Part shown: piece by piece, positions 28,205 through 51,651 of the stretch
Numbering within the stretch: position 1 is the stretch's first letter
Layout of the letters: each line of letters starts with the position of its first letter
Assembly (NCBI RefSeq): GCF_000169455.1
Contig: NZ_AAYC01000014.1
Span: 1-64,000 of the forward strand
Direction of reading: 5' to 3'
DNA from: Roseobacter sp. SK209-2-6
Lineage (GTDB): Bacteria > Pseudomonadota > Alphaproteobacteria > Rhodobacterales > Rhodobacteraceae
DNA length: 64,000 bases
Notes under the pieces: model-generated
Told to the model about the DNA's origin: nothing
The model's database searches: none
The model's input: the letters and a program-made list of their open reading frames with translations, nothing else
Program-made: the position numbers and the translations under genes

Positions 28205-28522
28205 ATGATCCTTTACGGTTTGAAAAACTGTGATAGCTGCCGCAAGGCCTTGAAGCAACTGCCTGACTTTCGCCTTGTGGATGTAAAGCAAGAGGGGGTC
28301 CCGCCGGATCTTCTGTTCCAGGCTCATAGCAAATTTGGCGCGAAGCTCTTGAATACTCGGTCAACGACCTGGCGTGGGTTGAGCGAGGAGGAACGTCAAT
28401 CCCCACCACTGGAGCTTTTGGCGGCGCATCCAACTTTGATGAAGCGGCCACTAATCCAGCATGAGGGGGAATTATTGCTAGGCTGGGATCAGAATACTCG
28501 AGCTGCACTTGGAGTGAGCTGA
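28205..28522 (+). CDS. ArsC/Spx-family reductase-like protein
   Basis: A protein of 105 residues with a thioredoxin-like ArsC fold. The motif CDSC (9-12) gives a CxxC pair in place of the single Cys of true arsenate reductases. KRPLIQHEGELLLGW matches the family C-terminal half. It most resembles the YffB subgroup, of unknown role and probably not an arsenate reductase. It stands 41 bases upstream of a small membrane protein gene on the same strand. Confidence 0.82.
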   Translation: MILYGLKNCDSCRKALKQLPDFRLVDVKQEGVPPDLLFQAHSKFGAKLLNTRSTTWRGLSEEERQSPPLELLAAHPTLMKRPLIQHEGELLLGWDQNTRAALGVS

Positions 28523-28991: not shown

Positions 28992-29024
28992 AAAAAAGAA
29001 ACGCCACTGCTAGCAGGGCGTTTC
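28992..29024 (-). terminator. Intrinsic terminator of the bufferin operon
   Basis: A 12-bp stem (GAAACGCC plus CTGC against GCAG plus GGCGTTTC, with one bulged A) with a TA loop lies 56 bases after the DoxX stop. On the minus strand it is followed by TTTTTT. This is one of the clearest terminators in the window. Confidence 0.85.
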
Positions 29025-29079: not shown

Positions 29080-29616
29080 TCAATCCTCAGCTGGGGCAAC
29101 CATGCGCTTTACAACCGCATCCACCGAAATAGCCCCGGCACCTTTGAAAACCAGAACCAGCAACAGGAATGTCCACATGACCCGCTGATCGACCAGTTCG
29201 ATGGCGTTGTTGAAGAGGCTGCCCAGTTTCACCCCATGTCCGGTGACATCCACGATGGTTTGAACCCAGATGAACCCGATAGTGCCCAGAGCGGCAAGAC
29301 GGGTCATAAGGCCCAGAAGGATCAGCGCTGGCAAGACATATTCCGCGACGGTGCCTGCGAAGATCACCAAGCGCTGGAAAATGTTGAGCTGGGAGACATC
29401 ATAGAGAACCGCTTCTGCCGCATGGGGGAAGATCTGTCCAAAGGCGCCGGCTGATGGAGAGAAGATCGAGCCGTCGATCTTTAGACCCGCAGAGTTCCAA
29501 TAGTAGACCAGCAACACCGCTGCAAAAACCAGGCGGGCCAGGGTCGGAACCGCAAAGCCCGAGAGCCTGTCGGCCTTGCCGAGGAGTGAAGTATATGTGG
29601 AGACAAGTGCGTGCAT
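29080..29616 (-). CDS. DoxX-family membrane protein of the bufferin operon
   Basis: An inner-membrane protein of 178 residues with four predicted helices (about 22-45, 78-102, 105-126 and 143-163). VYYWNSAGLKIDG and EYVLPALILLGLMTRLAAL are typical of DoxX. DoxX proteins commonly end operons that encode DUF2282, DUF692 and DUF2063 proteins. Its role there is unproven; a redox or electron-donor function is often suggested. It begins four bases after the bufC stop and ends the operon. Confidence 0.9.
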   Translation of the reverse strand: MHALVSTYTSLLGKADRLSGFAVPTLARLVFAAVLLVYYWNSAGLKIDGSIFSPSAGAFGQIFPHAAEAVLYDVSQLNIFQRLVIFAGTVAEYVLPALILLGLMTRLAALGTIGFIWVQTIVDVTGHGVKLGSLFNNAIELVDQRVMWTFLLLVLVFKGAGAISVDAVVKRMVAPAED

Positions 29617-29620
29617 GGTC

Positions 29621-30376
29621 TTACCCTTTGTTTTCCAGGCCTGTTATTGCGCCCCCCTGCAAGAGCAGGGTGAGCGTGGCTCCCAGGTCAAAGTTTTCAG
29701 TGTTGGCGCTGGCTTGTTCCAAAGCCTCACCAATGGTGGCGCCCCCCATCAGGGCGCTGATCCAGACTGCACCCGACGGGGGCAGGACCTGGGGAATGGG
29801 ATCGAATTCGGGGCGTGTTATCAGCACGTCCTGCGCTAGCGCCGAAGGCTTGGGCGCATTTTCCCGGGTGTTGAAAAGCCAAAGCGCATGAATGGGCCAT
29901 GACGATTTTATCACTTGAAGTGCGGGCGCCAGCGACAGGCGGCTCTGCATCAAGTCTTCGGCCGACAGCGCGGCCAGCAGATCTGCCTCAATTGGCTCTG
30001 CATCCGCCGCATGGTAAGAATGGCGCAGGGCCAGCTCCAACCGGGCGACATCTGCAAGGTAACCCAGGTGTTTTAGCTGTTCTAGGCCTTCCAGAAACGC
30101 AGGGAACTCCTCACCATAGAACATCATCAAGGGCGAGGATGGAGGATGCTGACGCAGGAATAGCCCTGCAAGCCCATCCATGTTTTTCTGGCCCAAAAGT
30201 TTGGAGATAACCGGAAAAGCACCGTGCATGGCCTCGGTCAGCGACACCGCGACATTGTTGCGGTAGACGTTGAAGCGTCGCCCGGCTGAGTTTTCCTGAT
30301 GATCGGTAAGGCCCAGAGGAATGGGCTCTCCGGCATCCATCATAGCGCGGGCGAATTCTGCCTGGGTCACAGTCAT
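29621..30376 (-). CDS. bufC: BufC/HvfC-type partner protein (DUF2063)
   Basis: A protein of 251 residues. The N-terminal DUF2063 domain (about 5-95) has RFNVYRNNVAVSLTEAMHGAFP and FLRQHPPSSPLMMFYGEEFP. The C-terminal half is an all-helical extension. In the known systems this protein forms a complex with the MNIO enzyme and helps it bind the precursor peptide. The start overlaps the bufB stop (ATGA), so the two are made together in a fixed ratio. Confidence 0.9.
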   Translation of the reverse strand: MTVTQAEFARAMMDAGEPIPLGLTDHQENSAGRRFNVYRNNVAVSLTEAMHGAFPVISKLLGQKNMDGLAGLFLRQHPPSSPLMMFYGEEFPAFLEGLEQLKHLGYLADVARLELALRHSYHAADAEPIEADLLAALSAEDLMQSRLSLAPALQVIKSSWPIHALWLFNTRENAPKPSALAQDVLITRPEFDPIPQVLPPSGAVWISALMGGATIGEALEQASANTENFDLGATLTLLLQGGAITGLENKG

Positions 30377-31227
30377 GCTGCAATGCGCTCCAGTGCGGAG
30401 GCTGCCCGCGCGGCTTCTGCTTCCAGAATGGGCCAGTCAGGGACATCATTGTCCCATTCGATGAGGATCGGCTTGGCGCCGGATTGCGCCAGGGTATAGT
30501 CGAGTAGAGCCCAGACTGGATCCACGACTTCCCGCCCGTGGCTGTCGATCAGCAGGGGGCGCCCGTGGTCATCCTCGTCTTTGTCATGACCGCCCAGGTG
30601 AATTTCGCCGACCTTTTCCAGTGCAAAGGCATCGATGTAACCCTGTGGGGAGAAGTCCAGATTGGTGGCCGAGACAAAAACATTGTTTACATCCAGCAAG
30701 AGGCCACAGCCGGTGCGGCGGGAAATCTCGGCCAGAAATTCAGGCTCGGACCAGGTGCTTTCCGCAAAGGCCAGGTAACTGGAGGGGTTTTCCAGCAGCA
30801 TCTTGCGGCCAATTGCTTCCTGCAATTGGTCGATGTGGTCACATACCCGCGTCAGGGCCGTGTCGGTATAGGGAAGCGGCAGAAGGTCGTTGTAGAAATG
30901 GCTATCGTGGGTCGACCAGGCCAGATGTTCAGAAAAACTCGCAGGGTTGAGCCAGCCTACAAGGGTCTTCAGCCGCGCCAGGTGATCCGTATCCAAGGGG
31001 CCTTCGCCGCCAATCGACAGGCCAACACCATGCACGGACATGGCAAAGCGCTCGGCCAGATGACGCAGTTGCGCCAGCGGGCGGCCGCCATCGCCCATAT
31101 AGTTTTCAGCGTGAATTTCCAGCCAATTGACACTGCCAGGCTCTGCGGTGATCTGGGCAAAATGCTGCGGCTTATAGCCAACCCCCGGCGCTGCAGGCAG
31201 ATGTTTCAAGGCAGCAGTGTCGAGCAT
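30373..31227 (-). CDS. bufB: BufB-type multinuclear non-haem iron enzyme (MNIO, DUF692)
   Basis: A TIM-barrel protein of 284 residues. Metal-binding segments of the MNIO family are visible in order: EIHAENYMG, SVHGVGLSIGG, FSEHLAW, LLENPSSY, LLLDVNNVFV, EIHLGGHD and IEWDNDVP. MNIO enzymes oxidise cysteine residues of precursor peptides into heterocycles (oxazolone/thioamide or thiooxazole) with two or three iron ions and O2. AGAGGT precedes the ATG. It lies between the precursor gene (98-base gap) and bufC (four-base overlap). Confidence 0.93.
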   Translation of the reverse strand: MLDTAALKHLPAAPGVGYKPQHFAQITAEPGSVNWLEIHAENYMGDGGRPLAQLRHLAERFAMSVHGVGLSIGGEGPLDTDHLARLKTLVGWLNPASFSEHLAWSTHDSHFYNDLLPLPYTDTALTRVCDHIDQLQEAIGRKMLLENPSSYLAFAESTWSEPEFLAEISRRTGCGLLLDVNNVFVSATNLDFSPQGYIDAFALEKVGEIHLGGHDKDEDDHGRPLLIDSHGREVVDPVWALLDYTLAQSGAKPILIEWDNDVPDWPILEAEAARAASALERIAA

Positions 31228-31325
31228 GGCAAACCTCTATTTCCAAAAGGCGGGAGGGGTTGGGCAGTCGCTTTAAGAGGGCGGTTCAGATCCCGCCCTC
31301 TCGCATGTTCTTTTAGGCTGTTGCC

Positions 31326-31631
31326 TTATGCGGGCAGGTCGCGCTCTTGAGGCTCAAGGGAGCCCTTGCGCTCTGTGCCGTCTGCCAATGCGGGCAGGTC
31401 GATATCTGCACAGGTACCTGCATCCACCAGGGTCCAGGCGTTGCCCTGATAATCAACGGTAGAGGTGCCTGCGCAGGTGGTGCCAGGACCGGCGGCGCAG
31501 TCATTCTGACCAGCAAGGGAGACACCATAGCATTTTTCTTTGGTGCCGGCTGCGGCAGGAATTGTGGAAGCGGCGGTCAGAGCGGCTGCGACGGCACCGG
31601 CAACGGCGAGGGATTTTGCGGTTTTCGACAT
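31326..31631 (-). CDS. bufA: Bufferin-type RiPP precursor (BufA1, DUF2282)
   Basis: A precursor of 101 residues. A signal peptide (about 1-28, ending PAAA) predicts export to the periplasm, unusual for RiPPs but standard in this family. The core has four Cys (34, 45, 53, 74) in the DUF2282 pattern [21 protein letters not shown] and AGTCADI. Known bufferins have their central cysteines modified by the MNIO enzyme and bind copper, so the modified peptide buffers copper stress. The C-terminal 20 residues are charged. The start has only a weak ribosome site (AAGAG). It is the first gene of the operon. Confidence 0.9.
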
Positions 31632-31692
31632 CTCTTGAAATCCTTTTGGGTTATCTTGCGGTGTCCTGATGACACAAAAAACCTAACCCGGC

Positions 31693-31713
31693 GTGACACG
31701 AATTTTAAGTCAC
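31693..31713. promoter_or_regulatory. Dyad in the bufferin promoter region
   Basis: The inverted repeat GTGAC-N11-GTCAC lies 62-82 bases upstream of the bufA start codon, a usual distance for an operator or promoter element. The binding factor is unknown; no regulator gene adjoins the operon. Confidence 0.35.
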
Positions 31714-32024
31714 GAGCCCGTGTCTCACATCTGCGTCAGGTGCTGTGATGGGTTTTGCTGTTCTAACTCATTGAAAATGAACAAAACTGTCTGTGATCTG
31801 AAACCAAAGCCCTTGCTGGAATTGGGGTTTGAGCATCAAAAAGGGGGGAAATATTACAGGTCGATCCCCACCAACCAGGCGGGTTTGGTCAACTTGTAAC
31901 ATTTGTAATTGCCCCTCTGGCATTTCGGAATTTGCTACCTAGCGCCGCTTCTGGATAGCGGATGCAAGACACGCGGTGCAGTACGGTTCTGATCGCTTGG
32001 GGAAATGTCTGCTATGACAAAAGG

Positions 32025-48232: not shown

Positions 48233-49591
48233 TTAGACGTTCATCAAGAGGTGCTCGCGCTCCCAGGGGGAGATCACTTGCAGGAACTCTTCGTATTCAG
48301 CGCGCTTCACAATGGAATATACCCGGGCGAACTCGGGCCCCAGCACCTCATGCAGCGCCTTGGCTTCCTCAAAGAGGTCCAGGGCCTGGCCCATGACCTG
48401 GGGAATATCGCCGTCGCCTTCATAAGCATCGCCCTTGAACTGCTTGTGCGGACGTTCTTCGTTGATCAGGCCAAGATAACCGCAGGCCAGTGAGACCGCG
48501 ATGCCGAGGTAGGGGTTGCAGTCCATGCCTGCAAGGCGGTTCTCAACCCGCCGTGCCGAAGGCCCGGAGAGCGGCACACGGATGCCGGTGGTGCGGTTGT
48601 CGCGCGCCCATTCCAGATTGATCGGGGCAGCGTGATCCTTCACGTAGCGGCGGTAGGAATTCACATAGGGCGCCATCACCGCAATCCCTGCCGGCAAGTG
48701 GTTCTGCAGCCCTCCGATAAAGTGGAAAAAGGCATCCGTCTCACCGCCCTGGGGTCCGGAGAAGATATTCTCTCCGGTTTCCATATCGAGGATCGAGTGA
48801 TGGATATGCATGGCAGATCCGGGCTCATTCTCGATCGGCTTGGCCATGAAAGTGGCAAAGCAGTCGTGGCGCAGCGCCGCTTCGCGGATCAGGCGTTTGA
48901 AGTAAAAGACCTCATCCGCCAGCTTGACCGGATCCCCATGCAGGAGGTTGATCTCCAGCTGGCCGGCGCCGCCCTCCTGGGTGATACCGTCGATCTCAAA
49001 GCCCTGATGCTCGGCAAAATCATAGATGTCGTCGATGACGGGGCCGAATTCGTCCACAGCGGTCATCGAATAGGCCTGGCGCGCCGCGGCCGGACGGCCG
49101 GAGCGGCCCATCATCGGCTTGATCTCCTGCGCGGGATCAGTGTTGCGGGCCACCAGGAAGAATTCCATCTCCGGGGCCACTACGGGCTGCCAGCCTTTGT
49201 CGTGATAAAGCTGCACCACCCGTTTCAGCACGTTACGGGGTGAGAAAGGCACCGGTGCCCCATGGCGGTCATAGGCGTCATGGATCACCTGCAGCGTCCA
49301 GTCGGCGGTCCAGGGCGCTGCGGTTGCTGTCGCCATATCCGGCTTCAGCGTCATGTCCTTTTCAATCCAGCCGTCCTCATCCGCAGCTTCGGCCCAGTCT
49401 CCGGTGATGGTCTGGTAGAAGATGCTGTCAGGCAGGTGGAAATAGTCCTGTTTGGCGAATTTCGAAGCCGGCACCGCTTTTCCCCGGGCGATGCCGGGGA
49501 GGTCCGAGATAACGCATTCAACTTCGTCGAGACGACGGCCCTCCAGATAGGTTCTTGCTGCTTCGGGAAGGTCGTCGAGCCAGGCTGACAT
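48233..49591 (-). CDS. Glutamine-synthetase-family gamma-glutamyl ligase (PuuA-like)
   Basis: An ATP-dependent ligase of 452 residues. The metal and glutamate sites are in APEMEFFL, GQLEINLLHGD and GSAMHIHHS; RDNRTTGIRVP and RRVENRLAG match the nucleotide/arginine region. The tyrosine loop that GlnE adenylylates in true GlnA is not evident. Such proteins join glutamate to amines (putrescine, ethanolamine, methylamine). It shares one base with the preceding amidotransferase stop/start and belongs to one transcription unit with it and the oxidase. Confidence 0.85.
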   Translation of the reverse strand: MSAWLDDLPEAARTYLEGRRLDEVECVISDLPGIARGKAVPASKFAKQDYFHLPDSIFYQTITGDWAEAADEDGWIEKDMTLKPDMATATAAPWTADWTLQVIHDAYDRHGAPVPFSPRNVLKRVVQLYHDKGWQPVVAPEMEFFLVARNTDPAQEIKPMMGRSGRPAAARQAYSMTAVDEFGPVIDDIYDFAEHQGFEIDGITQEGGAGQLEINLLHGDPVKLADEVFYFKRLIREAALRHDCFATFMAKPIENEPGSAMHIHHSILDMETGENIFSGPQGGETDAFFHFIGGLQNHLPAGIAVMAPYVNSYRRYVKDHAAPINLEWARDNRTTGIRVPLSGPSARRVENRLAGMDCNPYLGIAVSLACGYLGLINEERPHKQFKGDAYEGDGDIPQVMGQALDLFEEAKALHEVLGPEFARVYSIVKRAEYEEFLQVISPWEREHLLMNV

Positions 49592-50271
49592 TAGGTCCTC
49601 TCTTTCTTCATAAACTCTGCGAGGAAGGTTGCAATTTGAAGGTTGTCGTTCGGGGTCTCAAGCTTGGTGGCGGCGTCTTCCAAGAGGGCATCGGGCACGA
49701 CGCCGCGCCCGCGCTTTTCGATCAGCCCGCCAACAAAGCCGTTGGGGAATTCGGGATGCGGCTGCCAGGAGATGATGTGATCACCATAGGCCAGAATGCC
49801 GTTTTCACAGAACTCATTGCCGCCCAGGATACGGGCGCCCTCGGGGCGCTCTACGACTTGGTCCTGGTGCCAGGCATTCAGGGTCAGGGCTTTCCCGTCC
49901 TGCTCATAGGTGACCTGACCCACGGCCCAGCCGCCGGAATACTTCTCGACTTTGCCGCCCAGGGCCTGGGCGATGATCTGGTGGCCAAAGCAGATCCCGG
50001 CCAGGGGCCGCTTTGCGGCATTGATCTCTCGCACCAGGTCCTCCAGCGGCGGGATCCAGGCATGCGGCTCATAGGCGCCATGTTTGGAGCCAGTGATGAT
50101 CCAGCCATCCGCCTCGGTGGCACTTTCGGGAAAGATCCCATCCACCACGGCCCAGGTTTGAAACTCAAACCCATGGCCTGCCAGCATGTCACGGAACATG
50201 CCGTCATAATCCCCAAAGGGACCAAAGAGATCTTCGGGGGAGTGGCCGGTTTGCAGGATGCCGATTTTCAT
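49591..50271 (-). CDS. Class I glutamine amidotransferase-like hydrolase
   Basis: A protein of 226 residues. The nucleophile Cys is in AGICFGHQ, and HPEF supplies His and Glu of the triad. In this context it is a candidate for PuuD-like hydrolysis of gamma-glutamyl intermediates, although sequence puts it in the general GATase-1 group (GMP-synthase-like), not the PuuD family. Its stop overlaps the start of the PuuA-like gene by one base (TAATG), which predicts coupled translation. Confidence 0.82.
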   Translation of the reverse strand: MKIGILQTGHSPEDLFGPFGDYDGMFRDMLAGHGFEFQTWAVVDGIFPESATEADGWIITGSKHGAYEPHAWIPPLEDLVREINAAKRPLAGICFGHQIIAQALGGKVEKYSGGWAVGQVTYEQDGKALTLNAWHQDQVVERPEGARILGGNEFCENGILAYGDHIISWQPHPEFPNGFVGGLIEKRGRGVVPDALLEDAATKLETPNDNLQIATFLAEFMKKERT

Positions 50272-50331
50272 ATTTCACCAGATTTGATCAAATTCAGAGT
50301 AGCCGGGGCCTGGCCCCTGGACAAGGCCGCT

Positions 50332-51651
50332 TCATACGGCCTCGAGCCAACTGAGCCAATGCTTCTCTTGCGGCATGTCTGCAAAACAGGCGCGTTCCTG
50401 GCGCTTGGTCATAACCAGGTTCCGGATCAGCATCGACGGCAGGATTTTCGCCATCAGCGGATCGCTTTCAAACAGGTCGATGGCTTCCTGCCAGCCGGCG
50501 GCCAGCTGTGGCAGGCCTTCGATTTCATAGACATTGCCGGAGGAGGGCGGCGGCGGAACCATCTCTTCTTCGATGCCCAGGATTGCCGCGCCTAGTACCA
50601 CCGAGAGCATCAAATAGGGGTTGATGTCACCGCCTGCGGTGCGGTGCTCGATCCGGCGGGCCTTGGGGCTGCCGCCGGGAATGCGGATTGCGGCGGTGCG
50701 GTTCTCATAGCCCCAGGCGGCACCAGTGGGCGCATGAGCACCGGGCACCAACCGTTCGTAGGAATTGCCATGGGGGGCAAAGATCAGGGTGCTGGCGGGC
50801 ATGGCTGCCAGGCAGCCTGCGACGGCCTGCGCCAGCAGCGGGCTGCCGGTTTCAGACCCATCGTCAAAGATGTTGTTGCCCGCCTCATCCAGAACCGAGA
50901 AATGTATATGCATGCCATTGCCGGCCTCATCCGCATAGGGTTTGGCCATGAAAGTGGCCGCTAGACCGTGTTTGCGGGCCATGCCCTTGACCAGGGTTTT
51001 GAACAGCCAGGCATCATCAGCAGCGCGCAGGGCGTCCTGATGGTTCAGGTTGATCTCGAATTGGCCGAGGCCTGCCTCTGAGATCGCCGATTGCGCCGGG
51101 ATGCCCATGGCCTCGGCCCCGTCGTAGAGATCGGTGAAGAAGGCATCAAAGGCGTCGAGTTCCGCAACTGAGAGCACCGATTGCTGGTCCAACTGGCGGC
51201 CGGTATGGGGATGCGCCGGGGCGGCAGGGGTCTCACCGCTGTCGTCGACCAGGTTAAATTCCATCTCGGTGGCGGCCAGAACTGTCCAGCCCCGCGCCTT
51301 GTAGCGCGCCAGCACATGGGAGAGCACCTGTCGGGGGTCGCCCAGGAAAGGGGCTCCATCCTCATGTTCCATGACCATCGGGATCAAAGCGGAGGGGCTC
51401 TCTAACCAGGGCATCGGTACCGCGCCACGCCCGGAGGGTTTCATCACCCCATCCGCATCGCCAGTTTCAAACACCAGCGGGCTGTCTTCGATGTCGCGTC
51501 CCCAGATGTCCACATTCAGGGTGGAAATGGGCATGCGTGCGGCGCCATCATCGAGTTTGTCTGCCAGATCTGCAGGCATGCGCTTGCCGCGCATCTGCCC
51601 ATTGAGGTCAGCGGCTGCAATGCGGATGGTCTTAAGCTTGGACAGATCCAT
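50332..51651 (-). CDS. Second glutamine-synthetase-family ligase
   Basis: A protein of 439 residues, clearly paralogous to the ligase at 48233-49591. Metal/ligand motifs are ATEMEFNL, GQFEINLNH and NGMHIHFS, and the arginine region YENRTAAIRIPG is present. ATG 51651 has AGGAG at correct spacing; the open frame continues 18 codons upstream without a ribosome site. It starts the minus-strand unit of two ligases, amidotransferase and oxidase. Two paralogues in one operon suggest two amine substrates or a hetero-oligomer. Confidence 0.84.
   Translation of the reverse strand: MDLSKLKTIRIAAADLNGQMRGKRMPADLADKLDDGAARMPISTLNVDIWGRDIEDSPLVFETGDADGVMKPSGRGAVPMPWLESPSALIPMVMEHEDGAPFLGDPRQVLSHVLARYKARGWTVLAATEMEFNLVDDSGETPAAPAHPHTGRQLDQQSVLSVAELDAFDAFFTDLYDGAEAMGIPAQSAISEAGLGQFEINLNHQDALRAADDAWLFKTLVKGMARKHGLAATFMAKPYADEAGNGMHIHFSVLDEAGNNIFDDGSETGSPLLAQAVAGCLAAMPASTLIFAPHGNSYERLVPGAHAPTGAAWGYENRTAAIRIPGGSPKARRIEHRTAGGDINPYLMLSVVLGAAILGIEEEMVPPPPSSGNVYEIEGLPQLAAGWQEAIDLFESDPLMAKILPSMLIRNLVMTKRQERACFADMPQEKHWLSWLEAV

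Follow-up and report, generated by a model that had tools for sequence, protein, structure and literature searches.

A Buf1-type bufferin operon of Roseobacter sp. SK209-2-6 and a conserved 29-bp dyad element upstream of bufA, a putative operator

The window, that is, the whole stretch of DNA that was analysed, comprised 64,000 nucleotides of Roseobacter sp. SK209-2-6 (contig NZ_AAYC01000014.1, positions 1 to 64,000). Four ORFs were present on its minus strand from 31631 to 29080 in the order bufA-bufB-bufC-doxX (Table 1), in agreement with the initial annotation, which had described a one-strand operon of these genes. The overlap of the bufB stop with the bufC start (ATGA) that it had pointed out was likewise seen in the sequence.

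Table 1. Genes and DNA features at the bufferin locus, in coordinates of the window
Feature	Position	Strand	Description and basis
bufA	31326-31631	minus	101 aa, Buf1/DUF2282 precursor; ORF and Pfam
bufB	30373-31227	minus	284 aa, MNIO (DUF692) maturase; Pfam and NCBIfam
bufC	29621-30376	minus	251 aa, DUF2063 partner protein (PME-type 1); Pfam
doxX-like membrane protein gene	29080-29616	minus	178 aa; sub-threshold Pfam match, synteny
29-bp dyad element	31710-31738	minus	TGACGnnnnYGTGAnnCACnnnYYCGTGA; putative operator, from conservation
putative promoter	31680-31708	minus	-35-like TTAAAA (31703-31708), -10-like TAGGTT (31680-31685); abuts the 29-bp element
intrinsic terminator after doxX	28992-29024	minus	GAAACGCC...GGCGTTTC followed by TTTTTT; hairpin fold
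hairpin in bufA-bufB spacer	31276-31301	minus	AGAGGGCGG...CCGCCCTCT; fold

The precursor, BufA, was assigned to DUF2282 (PF10048) with an E-value of 1.3e-24 and 86.3 bits against the curated Pfam cut-off of 22.4, which bore out the family proposed for it. Counting by hand in the translation placed its four cysteines at residues 34, 45, 53, and 74 as annotated, and the columns of this four-Cys core were conserved across an alignment of 80 sequences. By eye, the N-terminus resembled a signal peptide, with a Lys-containing start, a hydrophobic run, and AAA-G around residue 28/29. NCBIfam gave BufA no name above threshold, the only model matched being BufA2 (18 bits versus a cut-off of 60), and no PDB sequence matched at E up to 1. 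The charged stretch of 20 residues at the C-terminus had been taken for a variant trait of this precursor. We rejected the tail as a distinguishing feature, as relatives have the same one: its columns R.GSL....RD.P were conserved in at least 95% of 79 related precursors plus that of the window. Among 28 precursors from loci of the same class (30 loci were taken, two of which had no readable precursor), inspection by eye found GSL in 24, GTL in two, and GQL in two, with an RDLP, RNLP, or RDMP ending in seven.

The DUF692 enzyme and DUF2063 partner expected after the precursor both scored above their Pfam cut-offs. BufB matched MbnB_TglH_ChrH (1.2e-100) and the NCBIfam model MNIO_BufB, an MNIO family bufferin maturase (369 bits versus a cut-off of 310), and in the PDB sequences it matched 3bww, 8hci ("DUF692 family protein"), and MbnB chains. 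Eleven of its positions, among others, were invariant in 81 of 81 sequences (E37, H66, H101, E146, D179, N181, H210, H214, D228, H230, and E257). These are residues of the usual metal-ligand types (H/D/E/N), and we take such positions to be the iron-atom ligands of MNIO enzymes. BufC matched DUF2063 (1e-23, 83.8 bits versus a cut-off of 27.2) and no PDB sequence at E up to 1. For DoxX, a homologue was present, as was bufC, in all of 80 related loci, while the operon's own protein fell just below the Pfam cut-off (E 2.2e-4, 22.2 bits versus 23.6) and below that of NCBIfam. The NCBIfam models for BufA2, HvfB, HvfC, HvfX, ApyH, MbnB, and ChrH all stayed below their own cut-offs for the operon proteins.

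The annotated terminator at the end of the operon was recovered as a sequence that folds into a hairpin followed by a T run. It was absent from a simple terminator scan, which returned 4 matches versus 4.3 expected from shuffles. A second hairpin lay in the spacer between bufA and bufB, which folded with a z of -2.3 relative to mononucleotide shuffles. Of 75 related spacers (those of 30-160 bases), 50 had z below -2 with 60 shuffles each, the shuffles preserving mononucleotide rather than dinucleotide composition. This is possibly an mRNA-stabilising or partial-termination hairpin, and it may raise the level of the precursor over that of the enzyme.

The genome of Roseobacter sp. SK209-2-6 (4.55 Mb) held one DUF2282 and one MNIO match, adjoining each other. 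Of the 12 genomes of the genus, this one included, 11 had BufA, and the exception is 86% complete; DUF2282 matches occurred in 140 of the 198 family genomes and in 111 of the 289 genomes of the class. The best 80 of 585 loci ranked by BufB were fetched, and their named members included Leisingera, Ruegeria, Phaeobacter, Pseudophaeobacter, and similar genera. All 80 carried the genes as bufA-bufB-bufC-doxX on a single strand, so the four-gene arrangement is not due to chance. In 78 of them, thrS preceded bufA and shared its strand. Since the neighbouring genes are kept, the site is, as far as gene order tells, a stable chromosomal locus.

We compared the operon with known systems (PMC3511200, PMC12452194, and PMC13097082). 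The Caulobacter Buf1 operon CC3254-CC3257 has the same order of precursor, MNIO, DUF2063, and DoxX genes, and the curated BufB model matched here. Its precursor is likewise a DUF2282 protein with four conserved cysteines (93 aa there, 101 aa here; PMC3511200, PMC12452194). A DoxX gene is common but not required in Buf1 clusters. Buf2 bufferins share export and MNIO modification but differ in having six (or 12) cysteines instead of four (PMC12452194), and the BufA2 model reached only 18 bits against its cut-off of 60. The oxazolin system (HvfABC) and other EGKCG captophorins also combine an MNIO with a DUF2063 partner (PMC13097082), and a signal-peptide precursor and a DoxX-like gene are common in EGKCG captophorin clusters (PMC12452194). 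In contrast, BufA lacks EGKCG repeats, and BufB and BufC scored 227 and 54 against the HvfB and HvfC cut-offs of 360 and 142. To methanobactin (MbnABC) the relation is a distant MNIO homology; the MbnB model scored 54.7 against a cut-off of 325, and the operon has a DUF2063 partner and a signal-peptide-like segment. Sec export is what PMC12452194 describes for bufferins, so the initial annotation's second variant trait, no exporter beyond Sec, is ordinary in this family. Together, the membership of the precursor in DUF2282, the BufB score above the curated cut-off, and the order and partners of the published Buf1 cluster supported the earlier bufferin-type reading at the level of sequence. The operon is a plain Buf1-type bufferin operon of an already published kind (PMC12452194, PMC13097082), one further member of a widespread family. 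The part that is possibly new is the conserved DNA element upstream of bufA.

In Caulobacter, the operon is under SigF and its anti-sigma factor NrsF, with the promoter GTAACC-N16-CGAA (PMC3511200). Here, a 29-bp dyad element was found instead. Its consensus, there in the form TGACGnnnnYGTGAnnCACnnnCTCGTGA, was present in 71 of 80 bufA upstream regions, taken from the window and 79 loci, and had no match in the remaining nine; its near-invariant columns stood alongside diverged flanks. The GTGA core was 97 bases before the bufA start in the window and 84-131 bases before it overall, the longest of these distances being overestimates because some bufA starts were set too far downstream. The symmetry of the element peaked at one of the centres scanned, with 0.60 of base pairs, versus 0.48 at the runner-up. 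Around this centre, pairs at distances 2, 3, 4, 10, 11, 12, and 14 were symmetric in 69, 71, 71, 60, 71, 71, and 67 of the 71 sites; symmetry at other distances was weaker, with 1, 9, and 13 matching in only 4, 2, and 2 sites. A TANNNT box followed the element at constant distance in 56 of the 71 sites (alone in 55, with a second candidate in one). The putative bufA promoter of the window was not picked up by a consensus promoter scan. Based on this conservation, the element is a putative operator of a dedicated regulator. By eye, no regulator gene was recognised adjoining the operon in the window (from ORF starts), and none recurred beside it among the ORFs listed for four loci. Among the open-access papers listed, judged by titles and abstract openings, we found none on a bufferin-operon operator from this group.

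The same element might be read as part of another ECF sigma promoter, with the TGACGC-like block as -35 and the CTCGTGA-like block as -10. By our own count on the alignment columns, 16 bases would separate the two blocks, and the operon is ECF-controlled in Caulobacter (PMC3511200). Against this, GTGAnnCAC, which would fall in mid-spacer, was among the most conserved columns, the dyad was centred on it, and the TANNNT box came at a fixed distance after the element. We consider an ECF promoter unlikely.

An operator outside the SigF/NrsF system was also consistent with the distribution of NrsF. NrsF (PF06532) had no match at E up to 0.001 in the genome of Roseobacter sp. SK209-2-6, which is 100% complete, and the Caulobacter control was positive. 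GTAACC followed by CGAA after 15-18 bases, with no mismatches allowed, occurred in none of the 80 upstream regions (160 bases before the start, window included). Among the 198 family genomes, NrsF was found in 29 at E up to 0.001, 28 of them above cut-off, and bufA was present in 23 of these 29 (lists compared by eye). The element was beside bufA in none of the 23 NrsF-bearing and in 50 of the 117 NrsF-less bufA genomes (Fisher p = 1.9e-5, relatedness ignored), a comparison in which the pattern favours window-like lineages because it was derived from the 80 loci nearest the window by BufB. Two-mismatch matches to the element occurred in three NrsF genomes (G125, G141, and G173), none of them beside bufA. 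At this stringency, 67 bufA genomes had neither NrsF nor the element; their element may be of a weaker form, or they may be controlled in another way. On these grounds, it is an evenly balanced proposition that much of the family has replaced the SigF/NrsF switch with a one-operon regulator on a 29-bp symmetric operator directly adjoining the bufA promoter, and that these two modes of control are mutually exclusive among bufA genomes.

We further examined how specific the element was to bufA. A sequence-only model built from 41 sites found one place at E up to 10 in the genome of Roseobacter sp. SK209-2-6, upstream of bufA; 150 of the 1139 candidates from a first look were scored. The genomes of the genus matched strongly in 11 of 12 cases (E 2e-7 or lower), always at the site of bufA, and the genome without a match was also without a bufA match; a second, weak match (E 0.09) occurred in two of the genus genomes. 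Outside the family, a weak, partial match (E 0.037) occurred in one of 24 genomes. When a shorter pattern was allowed up to two mismatches, it hit three places in the genome of the window (bufA at 0, two others at 2) versus two for a reversed control. Across the 198 family genomes, the element pattern at up to two mismatches gave 69 matches in 62 genomes, versus 4 for the reversed control. A same-strand DUF2282 neighbour was found for all 14 perfect matches, for 13 of the 14 with one mismatch, and for 21 of the 41 with two. Of these 48, 47 lay 153-202 bases before the DUF2282 domain and the remaining one (G074) after bufA; two further matches adjoined bufA on the opposite strand. Of the 140 family genomes with bufA, 50 thus had the element next to it, a count that takes in the two opposite-strand sites and the G074 site between bufA and bufB. 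The other 19 of the 69 matches were away from bufA, one with one mismatch and 18 with two. If it is a real operator, the element would offer a handle on how NrsF-less marine bacteria sense the stress that calls for bufferins, and, being nearly confined to a single site, it would serve as bait for what may be a new copper-responsive regulator.

The mechanism that best accounts for the locus is that of Buf1, because the operon shows the Buf1 features that can be tested in sequence, apart from a DoxX score below threshold and a signal peptide assessed by eye. BufA would be made with a Sec signal peptide, and in the cytoplasm BufB together with BufC would turn the central Cys45 and Cys53 into thiooxazoles. 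The peptide would then leave via Sec, the outer Cys34 and Cys74 would form a disulphide, and the mature peptide would sequester excess copper in the periplasm, with DoxX as an accessory membrane protein. Transcription would be switched by a regulator binding the 29-bp element and not by SigF/NrsF. Modification, export, disulphide, and copper binding are predicted by analogy with the Caulobacter homologue, and the regulator is proposed from conservation of its site. PMC12452194 describes Caulobacter Buf1 as a Sec-exported peptide whose central cysteines carry thiooxazoles and whose outer two are joined by a disulphide; it binds both Cu(I) and Cu(II) and aids growth in excess copper. According to PMC13097082, all characterised MNIO-DUF2063 products carry thiooxazole. 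We consider this explanation as a whole, a Buf1 operon with Caulobacter-like maturation and copper sequestration transcribed via the 29-bp element rather than SigF/NrsF, to be highly probable. The product could instead be a modified metallophore of this family whose physiological target is gold, cadmium, chromate, or oxidative stress. In Caulobacter, dichromate and cadmium induce the homologues via SigF (PMC3511200), the gold-induced "gig" operons are bufferin clusters, and roles beyond copper are expected by the authors of PMC12452194. That source nevertheless has Buf1, where tested, binding copper and improving growth in excess copper, and no other metal genes were recognised by eye, from ORF starts, adjoining the operon, which made a target other than copper quite improbable. 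That the operon is a non-expressed remnant can practically be dismissed, given that all frames were open, the metal-ligand-type residues of BufB invariant, the upstream element conserved, and the gene set intact in 80 of 80 loci.

We looked at five loci in which bufA was not initially seen after the element. One of them, L097 (genome G074), had bufA before the site, its element (1501-1529) lying between bufA and bufB rather than upstream of bufA. Another element was within a LysR-type gene, and a third lay before another gene without the -10 spacing. A further case was G208 (L100/L183), where a two-mismatch copy of the element with the right promoter spacing preceded a gene for a small exported-looking protein. 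This protein had no Pfam match, and we take it to resemble YHS-type proteins; a homologue was present in 108 of 198 family genomes, with two in the genome of Roseobacter sp. SK209-2-6. Among the 30 best loci of these homologues, the element was upstream in G208 alone, the others having at least seven mismatches, and therefore a second target or shared regulon was not supported. A TetR-type gene was beside the gene of L100, a single case. Within the window, a small ArsC/Spx-like protein was encoded convergently with the operon (28205-28522, plus strand), and 74 of 80 relatives also have it at this locus. Judged from ORF starts, the region 48233-51651 (minus strand) seemingly encoded two glutamine-synthetase-like proteins flanking an amidotransferase-like one.
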